The notes: generated by a model not told the origin, from the letters alone. A DNA stretch of 64,000 nucleotides from an uncultured Helicobacter sp. (GCA_949287835.1 CASEHV010000023.1:1-64000), one strand, 5' to 3'. Counted from the first letter of the stretch, positions 6,267-58,384 are shown. Numbers and translations are program-made.

Positions 6267-7841
6267 TCACATCACAGAAACTCTTCCAATCTGTCCTAGG
6301 GCAATGGCATAATCATTACATGGCATTTGTGGAAAGAAATATCGTATAGAATGCTCCTTTAATAGTGCGGCTGCTCTATTGCAAAGCGTATAATTCCCAA
6401 ATACCCCGCCGCCAAAAAGAGCCTCTTCTGCCGATAGTCTCTCTACGCCATCTTTTATGCAAAACGCAAGGGTATCTATAAATCTTAGTGCAATGATATT
6501 TCTATCAACCCCCCTCATGCTGTCCCTAAATATCTCTAGTATGCAGGGCGCGATATTGATTTGGTTATTTTCTATGATGAATGGGTAGGGGTTAAATGCT
6601 GTTTTATTTGTGTTCGTGGTTTTATGTTTTGTGTGGATTTTATTGTTGGTGTTATGTTGATGTGTTGTGTCATTCTGAGCTAAAAAATCTTTATTTTGAG
6701 AATCTGGATTCTGTGGTTTTTTAGATTCTGGGTTTTGTGTGGATTCTAAAGTTTTATTTTGAAGAGATGTTTCGCTCCGCTCAACATGACGAGATGTATT
6801 TCTCTCAACATGACAATGTTTATTTTCCTCAACATTAAGGTGTAAATTTATACTTTCATCTTTTTCTAAAAGTGCTACCTCCCCCTCACCTGCAAGGCTA
6901 GGGGGAGGGGTAACTTTAGAATCTTTTTGTATTTTAACATTAGATAAAGAATCATCAAACTCCAAAGACACGTCATAAAAGCCTTGAATAAAGCTAGATT
7001 CTAAAGCTCTCTGTGAAAGCATAGAAATATATTCCCCGCTTTGCTCCGCATAGCTGCATTCCTTAAGTCCTAGTATAAATGCCACGATGTCAAATAATCT
7101 TCCCACAGAGCTAGTAAGTGGTGCGTTGATTGCCCCCTTACTCATAGCACTTAGCATGGTAAATTTATCTCTATCATAGATGCTTTCTAAATACTTCACT
7201 ATTTCTGTCAAATCATTGCTTAACGCGTAGCCTAAAAGTAGCCTCCTGCCATCTCTAATAGACTTTTCTGAACCTAATATCCTAAAAGGCTTAAAATGCA
7301 GCGCCCTCTCAAAGCTAGAGAGATTCCCAAGCAGAAATTCGCCCCCCCAAATGCTACCATCGCTCCCATATCCGCTACCATCAAAAATAATGCCAAGCGC
7401 CTCACTCATATCTGCCTCTAGTAGCAGGGCATTTAAATGTGCGTGATGATGAAAGACTTCCATAACCTCGCAGTTATGATTCTGTGCTAAATTTAGTGCG
7501 ATGTAGCGATTTGCATAATGGGGATGTGCATCGAGTGCTAATATCTCTGGACTGCCATATAGTTTTAGCATGAACTCCATTTCTTTGGTGTAATTAGCCA
7601 AATTGCTAGGGCTAAATAAATCGCCAAGATAGCTAGAGAGCGCCACGCGCCTGCCATGCCCAAAGGCTAGAGAGCATTTCTGCATAGCACCAAAGGCTAG
7701 ACTTTTATGTTTTATATTGATATTTAATCTTATATTCATAGGGGAGTAGCCACGTGAGATTCTAAGTGCGCGGGGAGCCATCATGGGAATATCATTCACT
7801 TTCACTTTTTTAAACATTCTAACACAAAAATACAGATTCAC
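6267..7841 (-). CDS. hypF: HypF C-terminal half (Kae1-like carbamoyltransferase domain), separately encoded
   Basis: HypF normally has about 750 residues: acylphosphatase, zinc fingers, YrdC-like and Kae1-like domains. This gene holds only the last domain, which transfers the carbamoyl from carbamoyl-adenylate to HypE. It begins at the junction strand (LRISRGYSP, about 27-35). Metal and nucleotide motifs are intact: FHHHAHLNA, DGSGYGSDGSIWGGE and FGGGVFGNY. The other three domains are encoded on the plus strand at 18979-20217. Roughly residues 295-395 are a low-complexity insert absent from normal HypF, made of dispersed repeat sequence (PPPSLAGEGE, CHVERNTS, RHVERSETS) plus an Asn/Thr/Lys-rich stretch. 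The start is a GTG at 7841 with a weak GGAA site; an ATG at 7817 is the alternative. Activity with a separate N-half is inference. Confidence 0.9.
   Translation of the reverse strand: MNLYFCVRMFKKVKVNDIPMMAPRALRISRGYSPMNIRLNINIKHKSLAFGAMQKCSLAFGHGRRVALSSYLGDLFSPSNLANYTKEMEFMLKLYGSPEILALDAHPHYANRYIALNLAQNHNCEVMEVFHHHAHLNALLLEADMSEALGIIFDGSGYGSDGSIWGGEFLLGNLSSFERALHFKPFRILGSEKSIRDGRRLLLGYALSNDLTEIVKYLESIYDRDKFTMLSAMSKGAINAPLTSSVGRLFDIVAFILGLKECSYAEQSGEYISMLSQRALESSFIQGFYDVSLEFDDSLSNVKIQKDSKVTPPPSLAGEGEVALLEKDESINLHLNVEENKHCHVERNTSRHVERSETSLQNKTLESTQNPESKKPQNPDSQNKDFLAQNDTTHQHNTNNKIHTKHKTTNTNKTAFNPYPFIIENNQINIAPCILEIFRDSMRGVDRNIIALRFIDTLAFCIKDGVERLSAEEALFGGGVFGNYTLCNRAAALLKEHSIRYFFPQMPCNDYAIALGQIGRVSVM
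6764..6816 (-). repeat. Two tandem copies of the HVERSETS dispersed repeat inside hypF-C
   Basis: Read on the minus strand, two successive units GTCATGTTGAG(cgg)AG(c)GAAA(c)ATCT occur, translated in frame as CHVERNTS and RHVERSETS. The same core is found twice inside the outer-membrane-factor gene at 26987-27104 and again between genes near 56763 and 61606, so it is a dispersed element read through by the hypF frame. Confidence 0.8.
6878..6908. repeat. GC-rich palindromic element inside hypF-C insert
   Basis: An inverted repeat, CCTCCCCCT at 6878-6886 and AGGGGGAGG at 6900-6908, surrounds a short ACCTGCAAGGC-like centre. It stands out in this AT-rich region. On the gene strand it encodes PPPSLAGEGE in frame. 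It is adjacent to the HVERSETS units, so the hypF insert is a composite of at least two repeat types. Confidence 0.7.
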
Positions 7842-7951: not shown

Positions 7952-9727
7952 TTAATACAGATGATGCACTTCCTGCAAACCATAAACCTCAGTCCTCAAC
8001 CCTTCATAGCGCGCCTTGAGTTGTAGCGATAGATAGAGAGAATAATGCCTGCTTTGATGAAGATTGCCTCCATGAAACCATAGATTCTCTTGTTGTGTGG
8101 GCTTCCACATGTTACGTAATTCCCCTTCCCATGGTCCAGGGTCTTTTGTGGTGTTTGAGCCAAGACCCCAAACCTTGCCTACCTTTTCTGCCATCTCTTT
8201 AGAAATAATCTTTTCTACCCAAATATTCATAGAACTAAATCCAGTGGCATACACTATCAAATCTGCTGGAATCTCCCTGCCACTATCAAGCACAACGCTA
8301 TGCTCCTTGATTCTAGCAATATTCCCACGTTCAAGGGCAATGTCTCCTCGTGCTACAAGCTCACTTGCCCCCACGTCGATATAATAACCAGACCCTCTAC
8401 GCAAATATTTCATAAAAAGTCCAGAATCATCATCACCAAAATCAAGTAAAAACCCCTTTTTCTCTAATCTGTCATAAAAGTCTTTGTCGCGCCGCCTAAT
8501 CTCATCAAACATTTCCTTATGAAAAATAGGCATGACTTTGTAGGGAATGGAAGCAAAAATCAAGTCGGCTTTCTGCGTATCAATGCCCCTCTCTAGTGCT
8601 TCCTCAGAATACAGACCACCCATTACGACTTCCATAAGAGAATCAGAGCGAACAATATGTGTAGAGCTACGTTGTATCATGGTAACCTTTGCGTCATTCT
8701 CCCATAGTGCCGCACAAATATCATGTGCGGAATTATTAGAGCCAAGCACCACGACATTCTTGCCACTATAAGCCTCTGGTCCTTTGTGGGCGCTTGAGTG
8801 TTGCTGCTCTCCTTTAAAAATCTCTGCTCCTTCAAACTTAGGAATATTTGGCACACCAGACATACCCATAGCAAAGACTAATTGTGTAGGTTTTACCTCT
8901 ATCTCTCTACCTTCTTTATTGACTTTCACGCTCCAAGTTTTCGTGCTAGAATCAAAACTCGCAGACATTACTTCCGCATTATTCCAATAATTTAGCTCCA
9001 TGATTTTCACATAGCACTCTAGCCAATCTGCTATCTTATCTTTTGGCGAAAATACAGGCCAGTCATCAGGGAAAGAGAGATAGGGCAGATGGTCATACCA
9101 AATGGGGTCATGCAGACACAAAGATTTGTAGCGATTACGCCATTGATCTCCTGCTCTGTTTTGTTTATCACAAATTAGTGTAGGCACACCCAGACGTTTT
9201 AGCCTCGCACCAAGCGCAATGCCACCCTGTCCTCCGCCGATAATCAACACATAGGGCTGCTTTGTGATTCCTAGCTCCGCTTCCTCTTTTTGCTTTCTCT
9301 CAAGCCATGTGAGGCGGTTTTTGTGGATTCCATGCTTTGCACCTAGAATACGTCTTTTATTCTTTTTCTCCTCAAAGCCGACAAGCTCGTTTGCAGCAGT
9401 AAGCATTGTCCAGCATAAACCATCTTTAAGTCGAAAGATTCCCCTGCCACGTAAAATGGAAGTTTCAAAAAGAAAAAATACCTCTGTAATGCCGTTATTT
9501 TCATTAACTTCTTGCAAAGTGAAATGCTTAATTTCCACATCTTTAAGGCAGGAGTTTAGCATGGATAGAATTTCATCTTTGCCCTCGAGTGTTTTAAGAT
9601 TCCATGTAAAACTAACCAAATCACGCCAGTAGCACTCATCAGCAAATAACGCAGTTACTGCATTAAAATTTCCGCTTTTAAGGCTAGTCTCAAAATCACT
9701 TAACCATTTTTTCGCAACTAAGCTCAT
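7952..9727 (-). CDS. Flavin-containing monooxygenase with N-terminal NTF2/SnoaL-like domain
   Basis: About 120 N-terminal residues look like an NTF2/SnoaL cone (FETSLKSGNFNAVTALFADECYWRD), followed by a two-dinucleotide-domain flavoprotein. The FAD site is IIGGGQGGIALGARLKRLG near 160, the FMO-type segment around FKGEQQHSSAHKG follows, and the NAD(P)H site is VVLGSNNSAHDICAAL near 320; ATGFSS lies near the C-terminus. Class B monooxygenases of this build insert one oxygen at nitrogen, sulfur or carbon centres; the substrate is not predictable. Similar NTF2-FMO fusions are annotated as putative flavin monooxygenases in many bacteria. It stands alone, with a strong AAGGAGG site before the ATG at 9727 and a 214-base gap upstream. 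Family is certain, substrate unknown. Confidence 0.88.
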   Translation of the reverse strand: MSLVAKKWLSDFETSLKSGNFNAVTALFADECYWRDLVSFTWNLKTLEGKDEILSMLNSCLKDVEIKHFTLQEVNENNGITEVFFLFETSILRGRGIFRLKDGLCWTMLTAANELVGFEEKKNKRRILGAKHGIHKNRLTWLERKQKEEAELGITKQPYVLIIGGGQGGIALGARLKRLGVPTLICDKQNRAGDQWRNRYKSLCLHDPIWYDHLPYLSFPDDWPVFSPKDKIADWLECYVKIMELNYWNNAEVMSASFDSSTKTWSVKVNKEGREIEVKPTQLVFAMGMSGVPNIPKFEGAEIFKGEQQHSSAHKGPEAYSGKNVVVLGSNNSAHDICAALWENDAKVTMIQRSSTHIVRSDSLMEVVMGGLYSEEALERGIDTQKADLIFASIPYKVMPIFHKEMFDEIRRRDKDFYDRLEKKGFLLDFGDDDSGLFMKYLRRGSGYYIDVGASELVARGDIALERGNIARIKEHSVVLDSGREIPADLIVYATGFSSMNIWVEKIISKEMAEKVGKVWGLGSNTTKDPGPWEGELRNMWKPTQQENLWFHGGNLHQSRHYSLYLSLQLKARYEGLRTEVYGLQEVHHLY

Positions 9728-9941
9728 GAAGTCCTCCTTACAAAAACTACATTTTTATCCTTACAAAAGTTATTTCTAACTCACAATTTTCATACATTAT
9801 AGAATCTAAAATTTGGACTTGTCAAGCTTTTTTAAACAATAAAAACAAAAATATTAAGGTCTTTGTGAAATGGGGATTTTCTAAACTCTATGCAGAGATT
9901 AGAAATCGCGGTTTATAGTGAGGGAAATAGTCAATCTATGA

Positions 9942-18978: not shown

Positions 18979-20217
18979 ATGCGCTTTGAGTATAGCACAC
19001 TAGAGCCTAGCATATTAAGGCATGCGAAATTATATATAAAAGAAAGCAAGACTATAATCATAGAGGTCTTTGGTATCGTGCAAGGCGTTGGATTCCGCCC
19101 TTATATCTATAACCTCGCTACATCATTTAATCTAAAAGGCTTTGTGCGAAATGATAGCTTAAGTGTCAAGATTATGCTAGAAGCCTCTCCTTTAATCACA
19201 AACTTTTTAGAATCTTTAATACAAAATAAAGTAGGCAGAATAGAATCTCTTAGCATTAGCTACACGACTTTAGAGAATGATTATAACGATTTTGTCATAG
19301 AGGATTCTACGATAAGCCCCGGTAGCGCGCTTGGAGTCTCCTTACCGCTTGATTATAAAATCTGTGATAGATGCATAGAGGACTTAGATAATAAACATAG
19401 CAGGTTTTATAACTATGCCTTTGTATCCTGCGTTGATTGCGGTAGTAGATATAGCATTTTAGATTCCCTGCCATATCATAGGGATAATACAAGTATGGCT
19501 CATCTTGCCCTATGTGATGAGTGCAGAGGTGAGTATCTTTTGCCCTCCAACAGACGCTTTCATGCCGAGCAGATTAGCTGCAATAACTGTGCTATTAATT
19601 ATTCTGCCATAACTCTGCCAAGCGGAAAGATAGAAGACAGGGCGCTTTTGTGCATAGCCCAAAGGCTAAGAGAAGGGCAGGTAGTGCTATGGAAGGGTCT
19701 AGGCGGCTTTGCCTATATAGCAGATGCTAAAAATAGCAAGGCGCTAAATGTGCTACGAAAAATAAAAAGGAGACCGCACAAGCCCTTTGTAGTCATGGCA
19801 GATATAGAGAGACTAAAAGATATTGCCCTGCTAGATGAGAGATTATTATCCCTGCTAGATAGTAAGGAGTCTCCGATAATACTAGCTAGAAAATCTAGCC
19901 ATTATGATTTAAGTCATGAAGTTAGCGCTATGGATACTATCGGGGTTATGATTCCATACACCGCTATGCTTGTCATGCTTTTTAGAGTGCTAGGAAGCAA
20001 TTTTGCCCTATGCTATACCTCGGCAAATAGAAAGGGGGATATGATAGCTACTAGCATAAGCGAATTAGACATGGATTTTATACTGCAGCACCAAGATAGC
20101 ATAACAATCCTTGATTACGACAGGGAGATTCTCCACAAGCTAGATGATAGCATTATCTCAGGATTATTTGTCGAAAATGACTTTAGGATTAAGGGATTAA
20201 ATTTTTTGGAGACTTGA
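18979..20217 (+). CDS. hypF: HypF N-terminal half (acylphosphatase, zinc fingers, YrdC-like domain), separately encoded
   Basis: Contains the first three HypF domains. The acylphosphatase core is VFGIVQGVGFRPYIYNLA (about 30-47). Four CxxC pairs follow (CDRC, CVDC, CDECR, CNNC) with the typical spacing of the two HypF zinc fingers. The YrdC/Sua5-like domain, which makes carbamoyl-adenylate, has VLWKGLGGFAYIADA, KRRPHKPFVVM, SPIILA and CYTSANRKGD. It ends at DYDREILHKLDDSIISG followed by 14 more residues, exactly where the Kae1-like domain should begin; that domain is encoded at 6267-7841 on the other strand. AAGGAT precedes the ATG at 18979. The gene diverges from the FtsH-like gene and is followed by mobile-element debris. 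Confidence 0.92.
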   Translation: MRFEYSTLEPSILRHAKLYIKESKTIIIEVFGIVQGVGFRPYIYNLATSFNLKGFVRNDSLSVKIMLEASPLITNFLESLIQNKVGRIESLSISYTTLENDYNDFVIEDSTISPGSALGVSLPLDYKICDRCIEDLDNKHSRFYNYAFVSCVDCGSRYSILDSLPYHRDNTSMAHLALCDECRGEYLLPSNRRFHAEQISCNNCAINYSAITLPSGKIEDRALLCIAQRLREGQVVLWKGLGGFAYIADAKNSKALNVLRKIKRRPHKPFVVMADIERLKDIALLDERLLSLLDSKESPIILARKSSHYDLSHEVSAMDTIGVMIPYTAMLVMLFRVLGSNFALCYTSANRKGDMIATSISELDMDFILQHQDSITILDYDREILHKLDDSIISGLFVENDFRIKGLNFLET

Positions 20218-26071: not shown

Positions 26072-27897
26072 GGATTCTAAAAAGAGTGCGAGGCATTGCC
26101 ACAAGTGTGATAATGAGTGTTTTGCTTTTTGGCTGTGTGCCGAAGATGACAGAGCTACCAGATGATAGCAAAGTGCCTTTGAGCCAGACAAATATCTGTC
26201 TTAATGAATCTATCCTAGAGGCTAAAGATTCTAAAGATATAAAGTTTAGCAAGGAATGCAGGGGTGATGAGGCATTACTAGATACGCAGTGGTGGCAGGG
26301 CTTTGGGGATTCAAACCTGCTTGTTTTACTAAAGAGTGCTAGGGAGTTTAATACCCAAAATAAACTTACAAAAACCCACATAGACATGGCTAGAGAGGCA
26401 CTAAAACTATCCCGCTCAAGTCTCTATCCGCAGGCTAGTTTAGGCATAAATCCAGCCTATAATAAAACCGTGCTACATGACCTCTACGGACTAGGGGAAG
26501 TTAGCCTTGATTTTTCCTATCATTTGGACTTTTTTGGTAAATACAGACATGCAGCTAAGGCAAAGTATTATGAACTACAAGCACAAATAGCACAGGGTTA
26601 TGCGACTTCTCTAATGGTAGATATGCTAACTGCAAAGGCATATTTTAGCTATCTAGCATTGCAGGAGAGGCTAGAACTATTAAATACGACATTGCAAACA
26701 CGCAAAAGTGAGCTAGACATCATCATGGATAGAGAGAGCGTTGGCTACATTAGTGCTTATGATACGCAACAAGCAAAGATTCAATACGAATCTGTAAAGG
26801 CAAGTCTCTCTAGCACAAGACTTGCATTACTAAAATCAAAAGATACCATAGAGTATTTAAGTGGCGTGAATGTGGATTCTATACAGCCTGTTATGTTGAG
26901 TAATTTAAAATCCAAAGATTCTTCATATACGTTAGATTCTTCAAGTGAGTTCGCAATGACAGAATCATCAAGAACTACAGAATCTCGTCATGTTGAGCGT
27001 AGCGAAACATCTATAAATTTTAAAGATTCTCCACATTCGTTAGATTCTCCACATGCGTTTGCAATGATGGATTTAGGTCATGTTGAGCAAAGCGAAACAT
27101 CTCTAAAATCCCAAAAAAAGACAGAATCTAGGGCAACACAGAATCTAGATTCCAAAAAAGATTCTTCGCTTAACACTCACAATGACAGGGTAAAACAAAA
27201 TGACGCAGGGAATGCAAAAGGCACTAGAAATGCAAAAGATACGAAAGAAGTAAACACAAAAAAAAACACCAAAGTAGAAAAAACACCCTTTGAAAGCATA
27301 GCAATACCAGCATTGCCTAGCTATATATCTGTGAAATTATTAAATGAGCGACCCGATGTCATGTATGCTAATTTTATGTTAGCAGCAAGCAATGAAAAAC
27401 TAGCGAGTGCTAGGGCAGATTTTCTACCAGACTTTAGCATAGGCATTAATCTTGGTGCGGTAGGCATTGAGAATTTTACGCAGTTTCTAGCAATAGGCGG
27501 CATTGGTGCTAGTATATTAACGCCTATTTTCAAAGGAGGAGAGCTAAAGGCTAGATTTGGCATTGCAAATGCACTTATGCAAGAAGCCGCATACATGTAT
27601 AGAGATGTCGTGATAAAGGCATACATGGAAGCAAAAGAGACATATGCAAGTATCTATTTAATCAGTGATGAGCTAAAGATTCTAGCAAAGCAAGAGAGTG
27701 CTGCAAAGGAGGCACTATATCATGCAAAGGAACGTTATAACATGGGGTATTCATCATATCTTGAGGTTATAGACGCACAACGTTCCTTGCTAGAAATACA
27801 AATTAACATGATAAATCTAAAAAACATGTATTTAGAATCTCTAATCGATTTTTACATCGCAATGGGTGGTGGTGTAAAATGGAATGCTAAATCTTAG
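26068..27897 (+). CDS. NodT-type outer-membrane factor lipoprotein with a repeat-derived insert
   Basis: Third gene of the efflux operon, its ATG overlapping the emrA stop (ATGA). Lipobox LLFGC is at about 19-23. The first repeat carries WWQGFGDSNLLVLL and FSYHLDFFGKYRHAAKA, the second LLNERPDVMYANFMLAA and SSYLEVIDAQRSLLEIQ. Between the halves, roughly residues 285-405, lies an insert not found in relatives: TESRHVERSETS, LGHVEQSETS, then a Lys/Asn/Thr-rich run. This is dispersed intergenic repeat DNA read in frame. The insert falls where the equatorial domain connects the two repeats, so it may be tolerated. Total 609 residues against about 470-500 for the family. Confidence 0.9.
   Translation: MRILKRVRGIATSVIMSVLLFGCVPKMTELPDDSKVPLSQTNICLNESILEAKDSKDIKFSKECRGDEALLDTQWWQGFGDSNLLVLLKSAREFNTQNKLTKTHIDMAREALKLSRSSLYPQASLGINPAYNKTVLHDLYGLGEVSLDFSYHLDFFGKYRHAAKAKYYELQAQIAQGYATSLMVDMLTAKAYFSYLALQERLELLNTTLQTRKSELDIIMDRESVGYISAYDTQQAKIQYESVKASLSSTRLALLKSKDTIEYLSGVNVDSIQPVMLSNLKSKDSSYTLDSSSEFAMTESSRTTESRHVERSETSINFKDSPHSLDSPHAFAMMDLGHVEQSETSLKSQKKTESRATQNLDSKKDSSLNTHNDRVKQNDAGNAKGTRNAKDTKEVNTKKNTKVEKTPFESIAIPALPSYISVKLLNERPDVMYANFMLAASNEKLASARADFLPDFSIGINLGAVGIENFTQFLAIGGIGASILTPIFKGGELKARFGIANALMQEAAYMYRDVVIKAYMEAKETYASIYLISDELKILAKQESAAKEALYHAKERYNMGYSSYLEVIDAQRSLLEIQINMINLKNMYLESLIDFYIAMGGGVKWNAKS
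26987..27104 (+). repeat. Two HVERSETS-type repeat units inside the outer-membrane-factor gene
   Basis: GTCATGTTGAGCGTAGCGAAACATCT at 26987-27012 and GTCATGTTGAGCAAAGCGAAACATCT from 27077 encode RHVERSETS and GHVEQSETS. A related GATTCTTCGCTTAACACTCACAATGACA follows at 27160-27187, the opposite half of the palindromic elements seen at 58427 and 61493. Confidence 0.8.
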
Positions 27898-30823: not shown

Positions 30824-30829
30824 TATAAT
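30824..30829 (+). promoter_or_regulatory. Probable -10 box of the sulfur-linked operon
   Basis: TATAAT in ATACTCTATAATTCC about 30 bases before the yeeE ATG, at the end of a very AT-rich 250-base leader after clpA. No other gene lies between, so this would drive the five-gene operon. No operator could be identified. Confidence 0.55.
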
Positions 30830-30858: not shown

Positions 30859-31917
30859 ATGATAACGGGATTATTTGTCGGATTTTTGCTAGGATTTGTC
30901 CTTCAGCGTGGGAGATTCTGCGTTGTTGGGGCATATCGCGATTTATTCCTAACCAAAAAAGCTACGATTTTCATCGCACTTTTCATCGTCATTGCCCTGC
31001 AGAGTGTTGGCGTGTGGATTTTGCATGATTTAGGAATCATTGCTTTCAAAAATAGGGAATTTTACTGGCTATCAACCATCATAGGTGGCATCATCTTTGG
31101 CTTTGGCATGGTCATCGCAGGGGGCTGTGCTACTGGGACATGGTATAGGGCTGGAGAGGGGCTTATTGGCTCTATCGTGGCATTATTTTGCTACGCACTT
31201 GGTGCGGCGATGACAAAATATGGCGCACTGCATTTTATACAAGAGAATCTAAATGTTTATACGACTAGAGATTCTATGATATTTCAGACTCTAAATGTAT
31301 CGCCTTGGGTATTAGTGATAGTGCTATGTCTAGCGACATTATTTTTTGCGCTAAAAGAGCTATCAAAACCAAAGCTAAAAATCGCACGGCTAAAACCTAA
31401 GAAAGAAGGCATTAGTCATATTTTATTTGAAAAAGCTTGGCATCCATTTGTAACAGCTATCCTAGTGGCAATCATAGCCATAGTAGCATGGGTGCTATCT
31501 ACATGGAGTGGCAGGGCAGATGGACTAGGAATCACAACTCCATCGGCAAATCTCATGATGTTCCTAACTACAGGAAATACAGGCATTGTAGATTGGGGCG
31601 TATTCTTAGTGCTAGGCATTTTCATAGGCTCATTTAGTGCCGCAAAGCTATCTAATGAATTTCGCTTTCGCCTACCTGATATGAGGACATTAGCATTATC
31701 TGCATGTGGTGGAATCTTAATGGGCTTTGGCGCATCGCTAGCGGGGGGCTGCACGATTGGAAATGGCTTGGTTCAAACCTCGCTATTCTCATATCAAGGC
31801 TGGGTTGCCATGATATTTTTCATCATAGGCGCCTATATAGCGACATATATGTTTATTATCAAGAAAAATGTAAATGCTGGATTTACTACATTAGCAGGAG
31901 GACAATATGCAAAGTAA
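30859..31917 (+). CDS. YeeE/YedE-family sulfur-compound transporter
   Basis: About ten hydrophobic helices in 352 residues with two related Cys motifs, MVIAGGCATGTWYRAGEG near 95 and ASLAGGCTIGNGLVQTSLF near 300, the conserved cysteines of the thiosulfate channel YeeE and selenium-related YedE. The thiosulfate is passed inside along cysteines. It lies first in an operon; its stop overlaps the tusA start by 11 bases, and YeeE-TusA pairing is known in many bacteria. Substrate most likely thiosulfate or a persulfide, but selenium compounds are possible. AAGGAT precedes the ATG at 30859. Confidence 0.88.
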   Translation: MITGLFVGFLLGFVLQRGRFCVVGAYRDLFLTKKATIFIALFIVIALQSVGVWILHDLGIIAFKNREFYWLSTIIGGIIFGFGMVIAGGCATGTWYRAGEGLIGSIVALFCYALGAAMTKYGALHFIQENLNVYTTRDSMIFQTLNVSPWVLVIVLCLATLFFALKELSKPKLKIARLKPKKEGISHILFEKAWHPFVTAILVAIIAIVAWVLSTWSGRADGLGITTPSANLMMFLTTGNTGIVDWGVFLVLGIFIGSFSAAKLSNEFRFRLPDMRTLALSACGGILMGFGASLAGGCTIGNGLVQTSLFSYQGWVAMIFFIIGAYIATYMFIIKKNVNAGFTTLAGGQYAK

Positions 31918-32137
31918 TTATGTTTTGGATACAAGGGGTAAGGTATGCCCATTCCCACTTGTGGAGGCAAAGGAATTTGTAAAAGAGATTCCAAGCGGTG
32001 CGGAATTTGAAATCTATTTTGACTGCACACAGGCAACAGAAAGCATTCCACTTTGGGCAGCACAGAGCGGACATGAGGTAAAGGACTTTGAGAGTATAGG
32101 TGCTGCTGAGTGGAAGATGATCTTAATCAAGGCTTAG
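31907..32137 (+). CDS. TusA/SirA-family sulfurtransferase
   Basis: A 76-residue protein with the TusA motif VCPFPLVEAK, active Cys at 14, which carries sulfur as a persulfide. The strand-helix-strand body ends in WKMILIKA, typical length for TusA/YedF-like proteins. AGGAGG lies before the ATG at 31907. Its coupling to YeeE suggests it accepts the sulfur entering through that channel. It is not clearly the tRNA-thiolation TusA, since those genes are absent nearby. Confidence 0.92.
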   Translation: MQSNYVLDTRGKVCPFPLVEAKEFVKEIPSGAEFEIYFDCTQATESIPLWAAQSGHEVKDFESIGAAEWKMILIKA

Positions 32138-32146
32138 GGAGAGAGA

Positions 32147-33586
32147 ATGAAAAAGATTAGTTTCAATGCCTTTGAGATGAACTGCATCTCGCATTTAAGC
32201 CCTGGTCTTTGGCGCTATCCTAGTGATAAGGCATTGCAATACAAGGACATAGAGTATTGGCAGGAAGTAGCACGCATTGCTGAGAGAGGGTTATTTGATG
32301 CGGTATTTATCGCTGATGTGTTAGGCGTCTATGATATTTATGGGGGGAATGACATGGGCGCTTTAAAGACTGCCTTACAAGTGCCTGTAAATGACCCAAC
32401 GCAGTTAGCCGTTATAGGAGCGAGTGTAACAAAGCATGTAGGATTTGGAATTACTGCGGGTGTGCCTTTTGAGCATCCCTTTCCCTTTGCAAGACGTCTT
32501 AGTACACTAGACCATCTAACCAAAGGTCGCATAGGGTGGAATATCGTTACAGGCTATCTGCCAAGTGCTAATAGAAATATGGGTAGCAGTGAAATGCCCC
32601 ATGATGAGAGATATGACATGGCAGATGAGTATATGGAAGTCATCTATAAGCTACTTGAGGGGAGCTGGGAAGATGACGCTGTCGTGCTAGATTCTAAAAG
32701 CGGGGTATTTGCAGATTCTAGCAAGGTGCATCACATAGGGCATCATGGCAGATATTTTGATGTGCCCGGAATCCATGTCTGTGAGCCTAGCATTCAACGC
32801 ACCCCTGTGTTATTTCAAGCGGGGAACTCTACTCGTGGACGCAGATTTGCCGCTACCCATGCAGAGGCAATTTTCATAGCCCCGCCTACAAAGGAATACG
32901 CAAGGACAGCTATAAAGCAAATAAGAGATGCGTTAGTGCAGGCTGGGCGCGACCCATATAGCGCAAAGATTTACTGCCTTGCCACCATCATTACAGATTC
33001 TACACAGAATCTAGCGGAGGCAAAATATCGTGATTTACTATCCTACTCTAGCACAGAGGGAGCCTTGGTGCTTAACTCAGGGTGGCTAGGCGTGGATTTG
33101 AGTCGTTATGAATTAGACGACCCGCTTAGTAACATAAAATCTAATGCCATAGTCGCACAGATTGAGGCACTTAGTAATTCGACTACAAATGAGGGCAAGG
33201 AATGGACGCTTAGAGACTTGCTAAAACTCACAGGGCTAGGCTGTCAGGGACCAAAATTTGTAGGTGGTGCAAAAGAAGTATGCGATATATTAGAGGATTT
33301 TATGATATATAGTGATTGCGATGGATTTAACCTAGCCTATGCTACTACGCCTGGCACATTCCTAGATGTAGTGGAATTTGTGATTCCAAAATTGCAAAGT
33401 CGCGGCTTGTATAAAGAGGCGTATGTAGAAGGTAGCCTTAGACATAAGCTTTTTGGAAATGGAGATAGGCTAGATTATAATCATATCGCAGCAAGATATA
33501 GAGTGAATGGTTCGAAGTCTAGCATAAATGACTATGCGGGGACTGGACGCATTAAGCCAAAGAGGGATATGGATTATGTTATATAA
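32147..33586 (+). CDS. LLM-class flavin-dependent monooxygenase (NtaA/SnaA/DszA type)
   Basis: A luciferase-like FMNH2-dependent oxygenase of 479 residues. Family features are LWRYPSDKALQYKDIEYW, ERGLFDAVFIADVLG, EHPFPFARRLSTLDHLTKGRIGWNIVTGYL and VLFQAGNSTRGRRFAATHAEAIF. Members act on nitrilotriacetate, EDTA, dibenzothiophene sulfone and related compounds, and many sit in organosulfur operons. It follows tusA by 9 bases (GGGAGAG site) and its stop overlaps the ATP-grasp start, so it is tightly coupled with the sulfur genes. A reductase partner providing FMNH2 is not encoded here. Substrate unknown; desulfonation or desulfurisation is inference. Confidence 0.9.
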   Translation: MKKISFNAFEMNCISHLSPGLWRYPSDKALQYKDIEYWQEVARIAERGLFDAVFIADVLGVYDIYGGNDMGALKTALQVPVNDPTQLAVIGASVTKHVGFGITAGVPFEHPFPFARRLSTLDHLTKGRIGWNIVTGYLPSANRNMGSSEMPHDERYDMADEYMEVIYKLLEGSWEDDAVVLDSKSGVFADSSKVHHIGHHGRYFDVPGIHVCEPSIQRTPVLFQAGNSTRGRRFAATHAEAIFIAPPTKEYARTAIKQIRDALVQAGRDPYSAKIYCLATIITDSTQNLAEAKYRDLLSYSSTEGALVLNSGWLGVDLSRYELDDPLSNIKSNAIVAQIEALSNSTTNEGKEWTLRDLLKLTGLGCQGPKFVGGAKEVCDILEDFMIYSDCDGFNLAYATTPGTFLDVVEFVIPKLQSRGLYKEAYVEGSLRHKLFGNGDRLDYNHIAARYRVNGSKSSINDYAGTGRIKPKRDMDYVI

Positions 33587-34529
33587 TGACTATGAAGATG
33601 GCATTTTTATTTTACATGAAAATAGCGAGTGGATTGAGCCTTTCAGAGCGGCATTTCAGAGGGCGGGAGTAGAGTTTCGCGACTGGCATTTAAGCAAGGG
33701 TAGCATAGATTTATTTAAAGAGCCACCAAAGGGGGTATTTTGGAGCAGACTCTCAGCCTCTAGCCATACGCGTGGACATAGAGATTCTAAGGAATATGGC
33801 AGGGCTGTCCTCTCATGGCTACAATCACATAATAGACGTGTGATTAATGGCAGGAGTGTCTTAGAGTTTGAGGTAAGCAAAGTCTCGCAATATCTGGCAT
33901 TAAATGAGGCAGGTTTCCGAACTCCTTACAGCATTGCAGTCTTTGGTAAAGATGAGTTGCTAGTAAGAGCGCAGGGGCTAAAGACGCCTTTTATCACAAA
34001 GCATAATCAAGGTGGAAAAGGTCTTGGCGTAAAGATATTTGAGAATCTAAATAGCTTTAGAGATTATGTAGAATCTAGCGATTTTGAGCCATCTATTGAT
34101 GGCATTACGATATTGCAGGAATATATAGAATCAAAAGAGTTTTTTATCACGCGTCTTGAGTTTATCGGGGGTAGATTCCATTATGCCGTGCGTGTGGATA
34201 CAAGCGATGGGGCATTTGAGCTATGCCCTGCAGATTCATGTGAGGTAAAGCCATCTTTAGCGGGGGGAGCATGCGATATTAGGAGTAAATTTTCACTTCG
34301 CAGTGATGTAGATTCTAATATCATAAGACATTTAGAGAAATTCCTGCAAAGTCATAACATAGACATAGCAGGCATAGAGTTCATAGAAAGCAAAAGTGGC
34401 GAAATCGTCATCTATGATATTAATACAAACACAAACTACAATAGTGCAGTGGAATCAAGTGTGCCGCATAGAGCCGCAGATAGAGTCGTGGAGTTTTTAA
34501 GAGGGGAATTAGCAAAGGTCGGGGTGTAA
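33576..34529 (+). CDS. ATP-grasp family ligase between two flavin monooxygenases
   Basis: Features of the RimK-like ATP-grasp fold: the phosphate loop region TPFITKHNQGGKGLGVKIFE near 150, the adenine clamp ILQEYIESKEFFITRLEFI, and the metal-binding VIYDINTNTNYNSAVE with paired acidic/Asn residues near the C-terminus. Such enzymes ligate a carboxylate to an amine or thiol via acyl phosphate. The ATG at 33576 with AGAGGGA nine bases upstream (overlapping the previous stop) was chosen over an in-frame start at 33528. A one-base gap separates it from the second monooxygenase. The ligated substrate is unknown; co-occurrence suggests making or processing an S-containing amide or thioester. Confidence 0.82.
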   Translation: MLYNDYEDGIFILHENSEWIEPFRAAFQRAGVEFRDWHLSKGSIDLFKEPPKGVFWSRLSASSHTRGHRDSKEYGRAVLSWLQSHNRRVINGRSVLEFEVSKVSQYLALNEAGFRTPYSIAVFGKDELLVRAQGLKTPFITKHNQGGKGLGVKIFENLNSFRDYVESSDFEPSIDGITILQEYIESKEFFITRLEFIGGRFHYAVRVDTSDGAFELCPADSCEVKPSLAGGACDIRSKFSLRSDVDSNIIRHLEKFLQSHNIDIAGIEFIESKSGEIVIYDINTNTNYNSAVESSVPHRAADRVVEFLRGELAKVGV

Positions 34530-34530
34530 T

Positions 34531-35556
34531 ATGGAGTTTGGATTCTGGAGTCCTGTATTTGGTAGTTGGCTTAGAAATGTAGATGATGATAGCACGGAGT
34601 GCAGCTGGGAGTATATTCGCGATTTGACACTTAGCGCGGAATCTCTTGGCTACTCTCTTACACTCGTGCCAGAGCTATATTTAAATGATATTAAGGGACA
34701 TAAGGCGCCTGCACTAGATGCGTGGGCAATCGCAAATGCCCTTGCTAGTGTTACTAAGAAAATTGAGATTCTAGCCGCACTTCGTCCGCAGTATCATCAT
34801 GTGGCATTGAATGCAAAGCAGATTACGACTATAAGCCAGATTTGCAACGGACGCTTTAGCATAAACATGGTCTCAGCGTGGTGGAGTGAGGAGGCGCGGC
34901 AGTATGGCATAGACTTTGATAGTCATGATGATAGATATACACTAACGCGTGAGTATAGCGAGGCGTTGCGTAGCTTTTGGAGAGATAGTCCCAGTAATTA
35001 TAAGGGCAAGTATTTTAGCTTTGAGTCTTCATATAATGAGCCAAAGCCAAAAGAGATGCCGCTTATCTATGCAGGAGGGGAGAGTGAGGTGGGACGTGAG
35101 GCTATTGTGCGGTTTGCGGATAAGTATCTCATGCACGGAGGAACGCTAGAGGAAGTGAGAGAGAAAATAAAAGATATGAAAGAACGAAGGAGCAAAGCGA
35201 AAATGCCACCTTTTCGTGGCTTTGGCATGGCGGTTTATATGATTGTGCGAGATAGTGAGAGTGAGGCACAAGAGGAGCTAGAACGCATTACGACTATTAG
35301 GAATTATGAGGATTATGAAAATTCTTATAAGGATTTCACAGGCAATTCGAATCTAAATGTGGAGATTTCAAAGCAGGATTATAGCGTGTCAAATAGAGGT
35401 CTTCGTCCCGCACTCATTGGCACACCAAAGCAAGTCGCAGAAAAGATAAAAGCCTATGAGGAAGCTGGTCTTAATCTTTTAATCGTGCAGTGTGCGAATA
35501 TGAAAGAGGAGTTAGAGAAAATCGCTAGGGGGGTTTTCCCCATGCTTAGAAAGTAA
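34531..35556 (+). CDS. LLM-class flavin monooxygenase (SsuD/SfnG alkanesulfonate or dimethylsulfone type)
   Basis: Second luciferase-like oxygenase, 341 residues. WLRNVDDDSTECSWEYIRDLTLSAESLGYS, EILAALRPQYHHVALNAKQITTIS, GRFSINMVSAWWSEEARQYG and LIYAGGESEVGREA are hallmarks of the SsuD/SfnG branch, which cleaves C-S bonds of sulfonates or sulfones. It is the last gene of the operon and overlaps or abuts the ATP-grasp gene. A stable hairpin follows. The pair of different oxygenases suggests sequential oxidation steps. Exact substrate is not readable. Confidence 0.9.
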   Translation: MEFGFWSPVFGSWLRNVDDDSTECSWEYIRDLTLSAESLGYSLTLVPELYLNDIKGHKAPALDAWAIANALASVTKKIEILAALRPQYHHVALNAKQITTISQICNGRFSINMVSAWWSEEARQYGIDFDSHDDRYTLTREYSEALRSFWRDSPSNYKGKYFSFESSYNEPKPKEMPLIYAGGESEVGREAIVRFADKYLMHGGTLEEVREKIKDMKERRSKAKMPPFRGFGMAVYMIVRDSESEAQEELERITTIRNYEDYENSYKDFTGNSNLNVEISKQDYSVSNRGLRPALIGTPKQVAEKIKAYEEAGLNLLIVQCANMKEELEKIARGVFPMLRK

Positions 35557-35618: not shown

Positions 35619-35659
35619 AAAAGCATTCATCTCTTAATGTTTAAGAGATTTCATGCTTT
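35619..35659. terminator. Bidirectional hairpin between convergent sulfur operon and aldo-keto reductase
   Basis: Arms AAAGCAT..ATCTCTTAA (35620-35637) and TTAAGAGAT..ATGCTTT (35641-35659) with a TGT loop form a long imperfect stem between two genes that run towards each other. T-runs on both sides are weak, but position and strength suit a shared terminator. Confidence 0.7.
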
Positions 35660-35669
35660 GGGGTAATCT

Positions 35670-36704
35670 CTAATATCTAACAACAGGATATGGGTTTCTA
35701 TTATCCACAGTGCCTCTTTGATGCCAATATGGATATGGAATCTTTGTCTGACTTGCCTTATCTAGTAGCTCTATGTGTTTGCTATCTAGCTTTATGCTAC
35801 TAGCATTTAGATTCTCTTTTAGCTGGGATACATTCTTTGCTCCTATCACAAGGCTAGATATAGTAGGTCTGCTAAGAACCCATGCAAGTGAAATTTGTGC
35901 GAATGAATAGCCACTCTCCTTTGCCACAATCTCTAGTGCGTCTGTGATATTAAAGATATGATTCCTATCTACGTCCCATGCACCCGCTGTATCCAGCCTA
36001 GAGCCTTTGATATTCTCAGCCTTTCTTGTAATCTTACCAGATAGCATAGAACCACTTAGAGGACTCCATACAAGCGTGCCGACACCCTCCTCTATGCCTA
36101 GTGGCATAAGCTCATTTTCAAACTCTCTAGCCGCTAGTGAGTAATATGCCTGATGTGCCACGGGTCGCAAGAGATTATTGGAATCTGCGACAGATAGCAT
36201 TTTCATCAAATGCCACGCCGAATAATTACTAACCGCAAAGTATAGAATCTTACCCTGTTTGACTAGCTCGTTTAAAGTCTGCAATGCCTCTAGGTGTGGC
36301 GTCTTAGCATCATAGCAATGCAGATGATATATATCGATGTAGTCTGTCTGCAATCGCTTTAAACTAGCCTCTATGCTTTTTATAATCTTTGCCCTAGAAG
36401 TGCCTACCTCATTTACACCATCGCCCATTGGCATACCTGTCTTTGTGGAAATGATGATAGATTCTCTTTTGTAATCTTTTAGTGCCTCTCCTAGTATGAG
36501 TTCAGAATCGCCGATAGAGTAGCAGTCTGCAGTATCAAAGGCATTGCAACCAAAATCCATACAAGTCTTAATAAGCTGCTTTGCCTCATCTAGCTTAGTC
36601 TCGCCCCAAGTCCTAAACAGCTCCGTGCTACCGCCGAAAGTAGCTGTGCCTAACATCATATTTGGTATAAAAAAGCCGCTATTGCCTAATTGTCTATGTT
36701 CCAT
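35670..36704 (-). CDS. Aldo/keto reductase
   Basis: NADPH-dependent TIM-barrel oxidoreductase of 344 residues. The catalytic tetrad is visible: Asp and Tyr in AFDTADCYSIGDSE, Lys in IISTKTGMP, His in YIDIYHLHCYD. The C-terminal cofactor segment SSLVIGAKNVSQLKENL is also present. It belongs to the YghZ/AKR11-like general stress or aldehyde-reducing group; the substrate is unknown. AAGGAG lies before the ATG at 36704. It follows hypC by 23 bases on the same strand, probably a shared transcript of unrelated function. Confidence 0.9.
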   Translation of the reverse strand: MEHRQLGNSGFFIPNMMLGTATFGGSTELFRTWGETKLDEAKQLIKTCMDFGCNAFDTADCYSIGDSELILGEALKDYKRESIIISTKTGMPMGDGVNEVGTSRAKIIKSIEASLKRLQTDYIDIYHLHCYDAKTPHLEALQTLNELVKQGKILYFAVSNYSAWHLMKMLSVADSNNLLRPVAHQAYYSLAAREFENELMPLGIEEGVGTLVWSPLSGSMLSGKITRKAENIKGSRLDTAGAWDVDRNHIFNITDALEIVAKESGYSFAQISLAWVLSRPTISSLVIGAKNVSQLKENLNASSIKLDSKHIELLDKASQTKIPYPYWHQRGTVDNRNPYPVVRY

Positions 36705-57064: not shown

Positions 57065-58384
57065 ATGAGTAATTCAAAACAGAGCAGAAAAGAATATTTT
57101 GATTCAAATGTTAAGAATTTAGGGCAGGAGACATTGGCATTGCATTTTGGGTATAGGGCAGATATAGAGCAGACCATGAGTGTGCCGATTTATCAAAATA
57201 CCGCTTATGGATTTGATAGCAGCACACAGGCAGGCAATCGCTTTGCTTTAAAGGAACTAGGCAATATCTACACAAGGCTAACCAATCCTACAACAGCCGT
57301 GCTAGAGGAGAGATTAGCCGCGCTTGAGGGCGGGAGTGCCGGGATTGCCACCGCATCTGGGGCTAGTGCGATATTTTATGCGATTGTAAATATTGCACAA
57401 AATGGGGATAATATCCTCATGGCAAATAAAATTTATGGTGGGACATCTACGCTTTTAGTGCATTCGCTTAAACGTTTTGGCATTAACACAAAGATATTTG
57501 ACATCGATGATATTCCAGCCTTAGAATCCCTTATAGATTCTAATACAAAGGCAATCTTTGCCGAGAGTATTAGCAATCCAAACATATCCGTGGCAGATAT
57601 GGAATCTATCTCAAAAATCGCTAAAAAACATGGAATCATCTCTATCATAGATAACACAGTCGCAAGTCCCGCCCTCATAAAGCCGCTAAATCACGGCATA
57701 GATATTGTCGTGCATTCAATTAGCAAATACATTAGTGGGCAAGGTAGCGTCCTTGGAGGTGCGATAGTAGAAAGGCATGGGCTAAATGACTTTATAAAAG
57801 GCAACGCGCGTTACAGACATTTCAACGAGCCAGACCCCACATATCACGGGCTTGTGTATAGCTCCCTTTCTTTGCCAAATTTTACGCTTCGAGTCCGCAT
57901 TGCCCTTCTTCGCGACATCGGTGCCACGCTTTCACCATTTAACTCATGGCTTGCCATACAGGGCTTAGAGACACTAAATCTTAGAATAAGGCAGCACAGC
58001 ATAAATGCAAAAAAAATTGCAGAGTTTCTAAGCAAACACAAAAGGGTAAAATCTGTTAGCTACCCAGGTCTGCAGAGCGATAGATACTATCCGCTAATAC
58101 AGAAATACTCTAAAGATAGCCTAGCAAGTGGGCTAATGTCTTTCGAGCTAGATGGTGGCTTTGAGGAAGCAAGAAAGGTAGTAGATAGCACAAATATCTT
58201 TAGCATAGTGGTAAATATCGGGGATACAAAATCTCTAATCGTGCATCCCGCCAGCACTACGCACTCCCAGCTAAGTAAAGATGAGTTAGAATCTATTGGC
58301 ATAACGCAAAGCATGATTAGACTAAGCATCGGCATCGAGGATAGTAATGATTTAATAGCGGATTTAGATTCTGCACTTTCTTGA
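57065..58384 (+). CDS. metY: O-acetylhomoserine sulfhydrylase / MetY
   Basis: PLP-dependent Cys/Met metabolism enzyme making homocysteine from O-acetylhomoserine and sulfide. TLALHFGYRADIEQTMSVPIYQNTAYGFDSS, YTRLTNPTTAVLEERLAALEGGSAG, the PLP lysine in VVHSISKYISGQGSVLGG, and HPASTTHSQLSKDELESIGI at the C-terminus. 439 residues is typical of MetY. No other Met gene adjoins it. It gives the cell a way to use sulfide, which connects loosely with the YeeE-TusA operon. Confidence 0.93.
   Translation: MSNSKQSRKEYFDSNVKNLGQETLALHFGYRADIEQTMSVPIYQNTAYGFDSSTQAGNRFALKELGNIYTRLTNPTTAVLEERLAALEGGSAGIATASGASAIFYAIVNIAQNGDNILMANKIYGGTSTLLVHSLKRFGINTKIFDIDDIPALESLIDSNTKAIFAESISNPNISVADMESISKIAKKHGIISIIDNTVASPALIKPLNHGIDIVVHSISKYISGQGSVLGGAIVERHGLNDFIKGNARYRHFNEPDPTYHGLVYSSLSLPNFTLRVRIALLRDIGATLSPFNSWLAIQGLETLNLRIRQHSINAKKIAEFLSKHKRVKSVSYPGLQSDRYYPLIQKYSKDSLASGLMSFELDGGFEEARKVVDSTNIFSIVVNIGDTKSLIVHPASTTHSQLSKDELESIGITQSMIRLSIGIEDSNDLIADLDSALS

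Follow-up and report, generated by a model that had tools for sequence, protein, structure and literature searches.

In Bacillus subtilis, S-alkylcysteines are salvaged by acetylation, sulfoxidation by CmoO, C-S bond cleavage by CmoJ, reduction and deacetylation, and CmoJ is a homologue of DszA and YxeK (PMC10863075). The capping step of this pathway has been described as crucial (PMC12757645). CmoO/CmoJ of the ytm cluster and the ScmL/ScmK/ScmP system, which breaks down S-(2-succino)cysteine, act on amino-acid thioethers in a sulfur-salvage setting, using FMNH2-dependent luciferase-like enzymes, of which CmoO is small and CmoJ belongs to the NtaA/DszA kind (PMC10863075, PMC12757645). Another described system is the thiosulfate uptake pair YeeE-YeeD (TsuA-TsuB), for which the solved transporter StYeeE has three pore cysteines, C22, C91, and C293 (PMC11073785). 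In a 64,000-nucleotide stretch of DNA from an uncultured Helicobacter species (GCA_949287835.1 CASEHV010000023.1:1-64000; hereafter the window), I found genes resembling both systems in a single run. Like the salvage systems, this run encodes a small and an NtaA/DszA-kind luciferase-like monooxygenase. However, the B. subtilis systems cap their substrates with an N-acetyltransferase and have a linked deacetylase, whereas the window run has an ATP-grasp ligase instead; neither an N-acetyltransferase nor an N-acyl deacetylase is among its five genes. The features of the run are as follows.

30824..30829, + strand: TATAAT, possible -10 element (sequence only; a chance-level hexamer in the window)
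30859..31917, + strand: YeeE/TsuA-type thiosulfate transporter, 352 aa (Sulf_transp, E 1.6e-106)
31907..32137, + strand: YeeD/TsuB, TusA-family protein, 76 aa (TusA, E 3.7e-18)
32147..33586, + strand: NtaA/DmoA-family FMNH2-dependent monooxygenase, 479 aa (TIGR03860, 502 bits; 52% identity to DmoA)
33576..34529, + strand: RimK/LysX-like ATP-grasp ligase, 317 aa (weak RimK match; predicted fold ArgX/LysX)
34531..35556, + strand: SfnG/SsuD-like FMNH2-dependent monooxygenase, 341 aa (Bac_luciferase, E 1.5e-49)
35621..35658, + strand: hairpin 3′ of the last gene, possible bidirectional terminator (folding z -2.56; no T-run)

ORF analysis of the window recovered all five ORFs on the + strand between 30859 and 35556, as already mapped by an earlier note made from the sequence alone. 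The ATP-grasp ORF is open from 33528, and its start was taken as 33576 from its homologues. The junctions between successive ORFs are -11, +9, -11, and +1 bases, in agreement with the tight packing noted before (overlaps or gaps of up to 9 bases), and this spacing makes a single transcript for all five genes likely. The family assignments also held, with Pfam matches to Sulf_transp, TusA, Bac_luciferase (twice), and, weakly, the RimK ATP-grasp family. The two ends of the proposed operon fared less well. The TATAAT hexamer claimed as its promoter is indeed present, but its frequency in the window is not above that of shuffled sequences, and a two-hexamer promoter scan did not list the site. Likewise, the hairpin claimed as a strong end folds better than shuffles, but it lacks a T-run, was not called as a terminator, and may serve the convergent gene at 35670. 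Neither element is convincing as a signal alone. An anti-phage defence role was also considered, and was dropped as a PADLOC scan gave no match.

Judging from its conserved residues, the YeeE-YeeD/TusA pair (30859-32137) is predicted to be a standard thiosulfate importer with all known catalytic cysteines. YeeE scores 412 bits with the NCBIfam TsuA/YeeE model, which is under the cut-off of that model, and its C21, C90, and C298 align with C22, C91, and C293 of StYeeE (PMC11073785). The best NCBIfam model for the small TusA-family protein is TsuB/YeeD. It shares with E. coli YeeD a pair of cysteines, here C14 (in CPxP) and C40 (PMC11073785), and therefore most likely works together with YeeE in taking up thiosulfate. 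The gene order is also that of known YeeE-YeeD pairs, and in the window the two genes overlap by 11 bases. In contrast to those pairs, the window pair is followed by a trio of DmoA-like, ATP-grasp, and SfnG-like genes.

Is this arrangement common? In a survey of 121 genomes of the same bacterial family, the ATP-grasp gene is present in 27, and a YeeE of 64-72% identity with the small TusA-family gene directly behind it occurs in ten genomes besides the window's own. The YeeE-TusA pair adjoins the trio in the window's genome only; it stands without the trio in ten other relatives that have full-length close homologues. One genome (G124) has both the pair and the ATP-grasp gene, on separate contigs, while a congener (G012) has kept the trio and has YeeE only as stop-ridden fragments. 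No YeeE was found within 8 kb of the ATP-grasp gene in 80 loci from other genomes. Thus, the five-gene run is a local join of two independent modules, a known importer and an uncharacterised but widespread trio, which probably places two sulfur-supply systems under one promoter. The earlier note had imagined that the oxygenases hand the freed sulfur to TusA. Because the two modules are separate in every other genome surveyed, TusA as their sulfur acceptor is not supported and was rejected.

A neighbourhood search for the ATP-grasp gene, the two oxygenase genes, and TusA, which had been suggested in the same place, gave a divided answer. YeeE-TusA is missing from all other trio loci. On the other hand, the trio itself recurs in Helicobacter, Campylobacter, rumen Rhodocyclaceae and Neisseriaceae, and Actinomycetota, and the trio or the ligase-SfnG pair keeps its order and spacing across Campylobacterota, Pseudomonadota, and Actinomycetota; the pair is also found in Peribacillus. 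The order DmoA, ligase, SfnG is seen in 23 of the 24 complete loci, and the 11-base overlap is very often the same. The three proteins also co-vary, their pairwise distances being correlated (Mantel r 0.75-0.90, with none of 999 permutations as high). These recurrences across phyla, of the ligase-SfnG pair and usually of a DmoA-like gene with it, bear out the suspicion that the ligase is tied to the oxygenase pathway. Furthermore, two Deinococcus plasmids have an SfnG-like protein (45-46% identical) encoded behind another ATP-grasp gene, whose product has no significant similarity to the window ligase. An unrelated ATP-grasp enzyme in the same position speaks for ligation being part of the pathway. 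In D. deserti, a racemase gene and a gene annotated as D-cysteine desulfhydrase lie upstream of this ATP-grasp/SfnG-like pair. The ATP-grasp gene also occurs with neither oxygenase gene nearby in several actinobacterial loci, and it stands beside a symporter gene in Pediococcus. A literature search, which had few subscription journals within its reach, found no description of this gene set, as the earlier note had supposed.

LysX/ArgX and RimK form amide bonds on amino groups. The window ligase scores 48.4 bits with the RimK alpha-L-glutamate ligase model (TIGR00768), below the cut-off of 143.4, and a profile of 47 homologues matches RimK and LysX weakly (E 4e-9). Its AlphaFold model (pLDDT 89.9) was compared with PDB structures by Foldseek, and the best matches were ArgX, LysX, and RimK, with E values from 9e-18 (ArgX) to 1e-14, TM scores of about 0.6-0.8, and sequence identities of 11-19%. 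K102, K142, E268, D281, and N283 are invariant in the 47 homologues and, by what is generally known of RimK, presumably correspond to the ATP- and metal-binding residues of this superfamily; since these residues are invariant, the enzyme should be active. With this predicted fold, the conserved lysines, and the Mg ligands, the window ligase is, as far as the model tells, structurally of the amide-forming LysX/RimK kind. Unlike LysX, ArgX, and RimK, its family has invariant cysteines of its own, C217 and C222, which lie within a disordered loop or next to it. The earlier note had proposed an amide- or thioester-tagged substrate; the predicted fold speaks for the amide, while the thioester found no support.

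The two oxygenases are the only PF00296 proteins in the window's genome. The DmoA-like enzyme (32147-33586) belongs to the NtaA/DmoA family (TIGR03860 cut-off, 279.7 bits) and is nearer to DmoA, for which the solved entry is 6ak1, than to CmoJ/YtnJ. Nevertheless, it lies outside the clade of DmoA of Hyphomicrobium sulfonivorans: window-type sequences form a ligase-linked sister clade, and the branches separating the two are well supported. The SfnG-like enzyme (34531-35556) belongs to the same family as SfnG, SsuD, and MsuD, but scores 210.8 bits with the SfnG equivalog model (TIGR04021; cut-off, 382.95) and 142.8 bits with the SsuD/MsuD model (TIGR03565; cut-off, 518.2). It is about 31% identical to annotated SfnG proteins, and the solved chains closest to it are 8vw6 and 3rao. 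In the alignment, the RLH motif of SsuD, which I take to consist of sulfonate-site residues, reads AVY in the window enzyme. Orthology of the two oxygenases with CmoJ and CmoO was not supported, their nearest relatives being instead of the DmoA and SfnG/8vw6 types. Both enzymes are expected to depend on FMNH2. Four other loci have FMN reductase genes linked to the module; in the window's genome, no FMN_red match above the cut-off was found, and a PF01613 flavin reductase gene is present, unlinked to the run.

These affinities raise the question of whether the oxygenases simply use methylated sulfur compounds without any tagging, the ATP-grasp enzyme being unrelated. The DmoA-like enzyme would convert dimethyl sulfide to methanethiol and formaldehyde, and the SfnG-like enzyme would convert dimethyl sulfone to methanesulfinate. 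The 52% identity to DmoA fits such a route, as does the fact that no equivalog model scores better than SfnG with the last gene, and Gulosibacter and Zimmermannella have a true DmoA-clade gene where the DmoA-like gene would stand. However, a single Pseudoclavibacter island keeps both a DmoA-clade paralogue and a window-type enzyme, and the score with the SfnG model is well under its cut-off. Moreover, dimethyl sulfide and dimethyl sulfone have no group that could be ligated. The SfnG-like enzyme is usually accompanied by the ATP-grasp enzyme, which an unrelated one replaces in Deinococcus. I therefore regard plain methyl-sulfur use as unlikely.

Sulfur genes neighbour the module in other genomes. 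It lies next to CBS and CGL-type genes in Pseudoclavibacter, Gulosibacter, an Actinomycetaceae MAG, a Leucobacter MAG, and Campylobacter HAN009, where the adjoining genes are MccA/MccB. In Pseudoclavibacter, CBS, CGL, ATP-grasp, and SfnG genes are packed together, and the same island includes genes of the DmoA and SfnB/DszC types as well as genes for flavin reductase and rhodanese. The Actinomycetaceae MAG has the row DmoA-ATPgrasp-SfnG-FMN reductase-CGL-MccA. In Curtobacterium and Zimmermannella, MetY lies directly 3′ of SfnG, and cystine-type ABC genes follow SfnG in two loci (L011 and L012). The enrichment was roughly estimated with PF01053 genes scoring above 250 bits, of which 55 were counted in the 49.5 Mb of 13 genomes (about 1.1 per Mb). 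A PF01053 gene lies within 8 kb of the module in four of the 13 loci (17 kb each, chosen mostly for having no nearby DmoA gene and not for such neighbours) against 0.25 expected, with a probability of about 1 in 10,000 by a rough binomial estimate. In addition, an S-box SAM riboswitch lies just before the SfnG-ligase pair of Peribacillus kribbensis (L082, 6746-6847); when the other 24 loci were scanned, none had a sulfur switch preceding the module. This Peribacillus locus has no close DmoA-like enzyme, so the pair must be functional in its absence too. Since CBS/CGL, MetY, FMN reductase, SfnB, and cystine transporter genes are its neighbours in other phyla, the sulfur role of the module is well supported. 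Thus, of the pathway proposed earlier, a desulfurisation or sulfur-salvage role is supported, with the recurrent sulfur-amino-acid genes and the SAM riboswitch behind it, and the hand-over to TusA is not.

Could methionine be the substrate, capped by the ligase and stripped of its S-methyl group by the oxygenases to give homocysteine, which CBS and CGL would convert to cysteine? The five loci with adjoining CBS and CGL-type genes agree with such a demethylation, DmoA-type enzymes do demethylate a methyl thioether, and in Bifidobacterium the module is adjoined by a divergent metK with its own SAM-VI riboswitch. Yet the Peribacillus S-box would turn the pair on at methionine shortage, which is odd for methionine consumption, and the MetY neighbours fit sulfide or methanethiol as the product. 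Methionine demethylation thus seems rather improbable. A small biosynthetic cluster has a precedent in butirosin biosynthesis, where an ATP-grasp enzyme (BtrJ) is paired with a luciferase-like monooxygenase (BtrO, side-chain hydroxylation) as in the window run, and where the cap is reportedly gamma-glutamyl. The ligase and the oxygenases would then make a modified dipeptide or a thiol cofactor. What adjoins the module speaks against this, namely genes of sulfur assimilation, uptake systems, and a SAM riboswitch rather than exporters or resistance genes, and I consider such a cluster very unlikely.

On balance, I lean slightly towards reading the trio as an O2-dependent route that would free sulfur from a tagged small organosulfur compound, beside a separate thiosulfate importer. 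The most likely substrate would be an S-alkyl (S-methyl) amino acid, S-methylcysteine-like or methionine-like. YeeE-YeeD would import and split thiosulfate on its own. In the trio, the ATP-grasp enzyme would tag the substrate through an amide bond, most likely by capping its amino group with an amino acid, after the model of amino capping by LysX/ArgX and of N-acetylation in B. subtilis. The SfnG-like FMNH2 monooxygenase would oxidise the capped compound, and the DmoA-like enzyme would cleave the C-S bond so that the S-alkyl group leaves as an aldehyde; this order of the two oxidations is presumed. The unlinked PF01613 flavin reductase might supply FMNH2. A housekeeping peptidase may then take off the cap; no peptidase or amidohydrolase gene was consistently linked to the module; M20 genes turned up sporadically, and a cyclase-family gene once. 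The supposed product, a thiol or sulfide, would be released and would enter the cysteine/homocysteine pool through MetY or CBS/CGL.

This sequence of capping, oxidation, cleavage, and uncapping is proposed because the ligase stands in the place of the acetyltransferase beside a small and an NtaA/DmoA-family oxygenase. By this analogy, the tagging mechanism is plausible. Against the analogy, the window oxygenases are in other subfamilies (DmoA-like and SfnG-like) than CmoO and CmoJ, and the membership of the SfnG-like enzyme in the CmoO type is only putative. More tentatively, with somewhat less than even confidence, I suggest an undescribed widespread route in which an ATP-grasp enzyme caps a sulfur amino acid as a disposable dipeptide amide and two flavin monooxygenases cleave the C-S bond. 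Such a route would have been assembled at least twice, because Deinococcus pairs an unrelated ATP-grasp enzyme with the same oxygenase. If true, it would add peptide tagging to bacterial organosulfur metabolism, and would predict that a conserved ATP-grasp family and the 8vw6/3rao-type monooxygenases of soil, rumen, and gut bacteria function in sulfur salvage. It would also hint at where Helicobacter and Campylobacter species living in animals may obtain sulfur. The earlier note had found such a pathway unexpected in an organism of reduced metabolism, but for sulfur the organism is not metabolically reduced, as the window's genome proved to encode CysD and two full-length Cys/Met PLP family proteins, one of which is MetY at 57065-58384.

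A gene for MetY, an O-acetylhomoserine sulfhydrylase, was found in the window, and its product scored above the TIGR01326 cut-off. MetY is a possible sink for the sulfur released by the oxygenase-ligase module.

57065-58384: MetY

In the congener genome G012, the DmoA-ligase-SfnG trio is retained at a place other than that of the YeeE fragments. These fragments, at positions 62844-63283 of contig C3, are full of stop codons.

Several relatives (L019-L021, L024, L025, and L088-L097) have a variable insert at about residues 220-235 of the ATP-grasp ligase, in the loop adjoining the invariant LCPAD-C motif. In the structure model, too, this loop comes out disordered. On Pediococcus acidilactici plasmids, the ATP-grasp gene (42%; L003, positions 8980-9918) lies directly downstream of a dicarboxylate/amino acid symporter gene and a thioredoxin-domain gene, with no annotated oxygenases near it.

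HypF appears to be encoded by two separate genes on opposite strands of the window, with about 11 kb between them.

18979-20217, + strand: HypF N-terminal half (model positions 1-362 of 741)
6267-7841, - strand: HypF C-terminal half (model positions 368-625 of 741)

A repeat element of 28-31 nt, whose copies (6765-6795, 26987-27017, and 27077-27107) are 90-97% identical, sits in frame within two unrelated genes, one encoding the C-terminal half of HypF and the other an efflux protein of the outer membrane; the inserts encode HVERSETS-like peptides.
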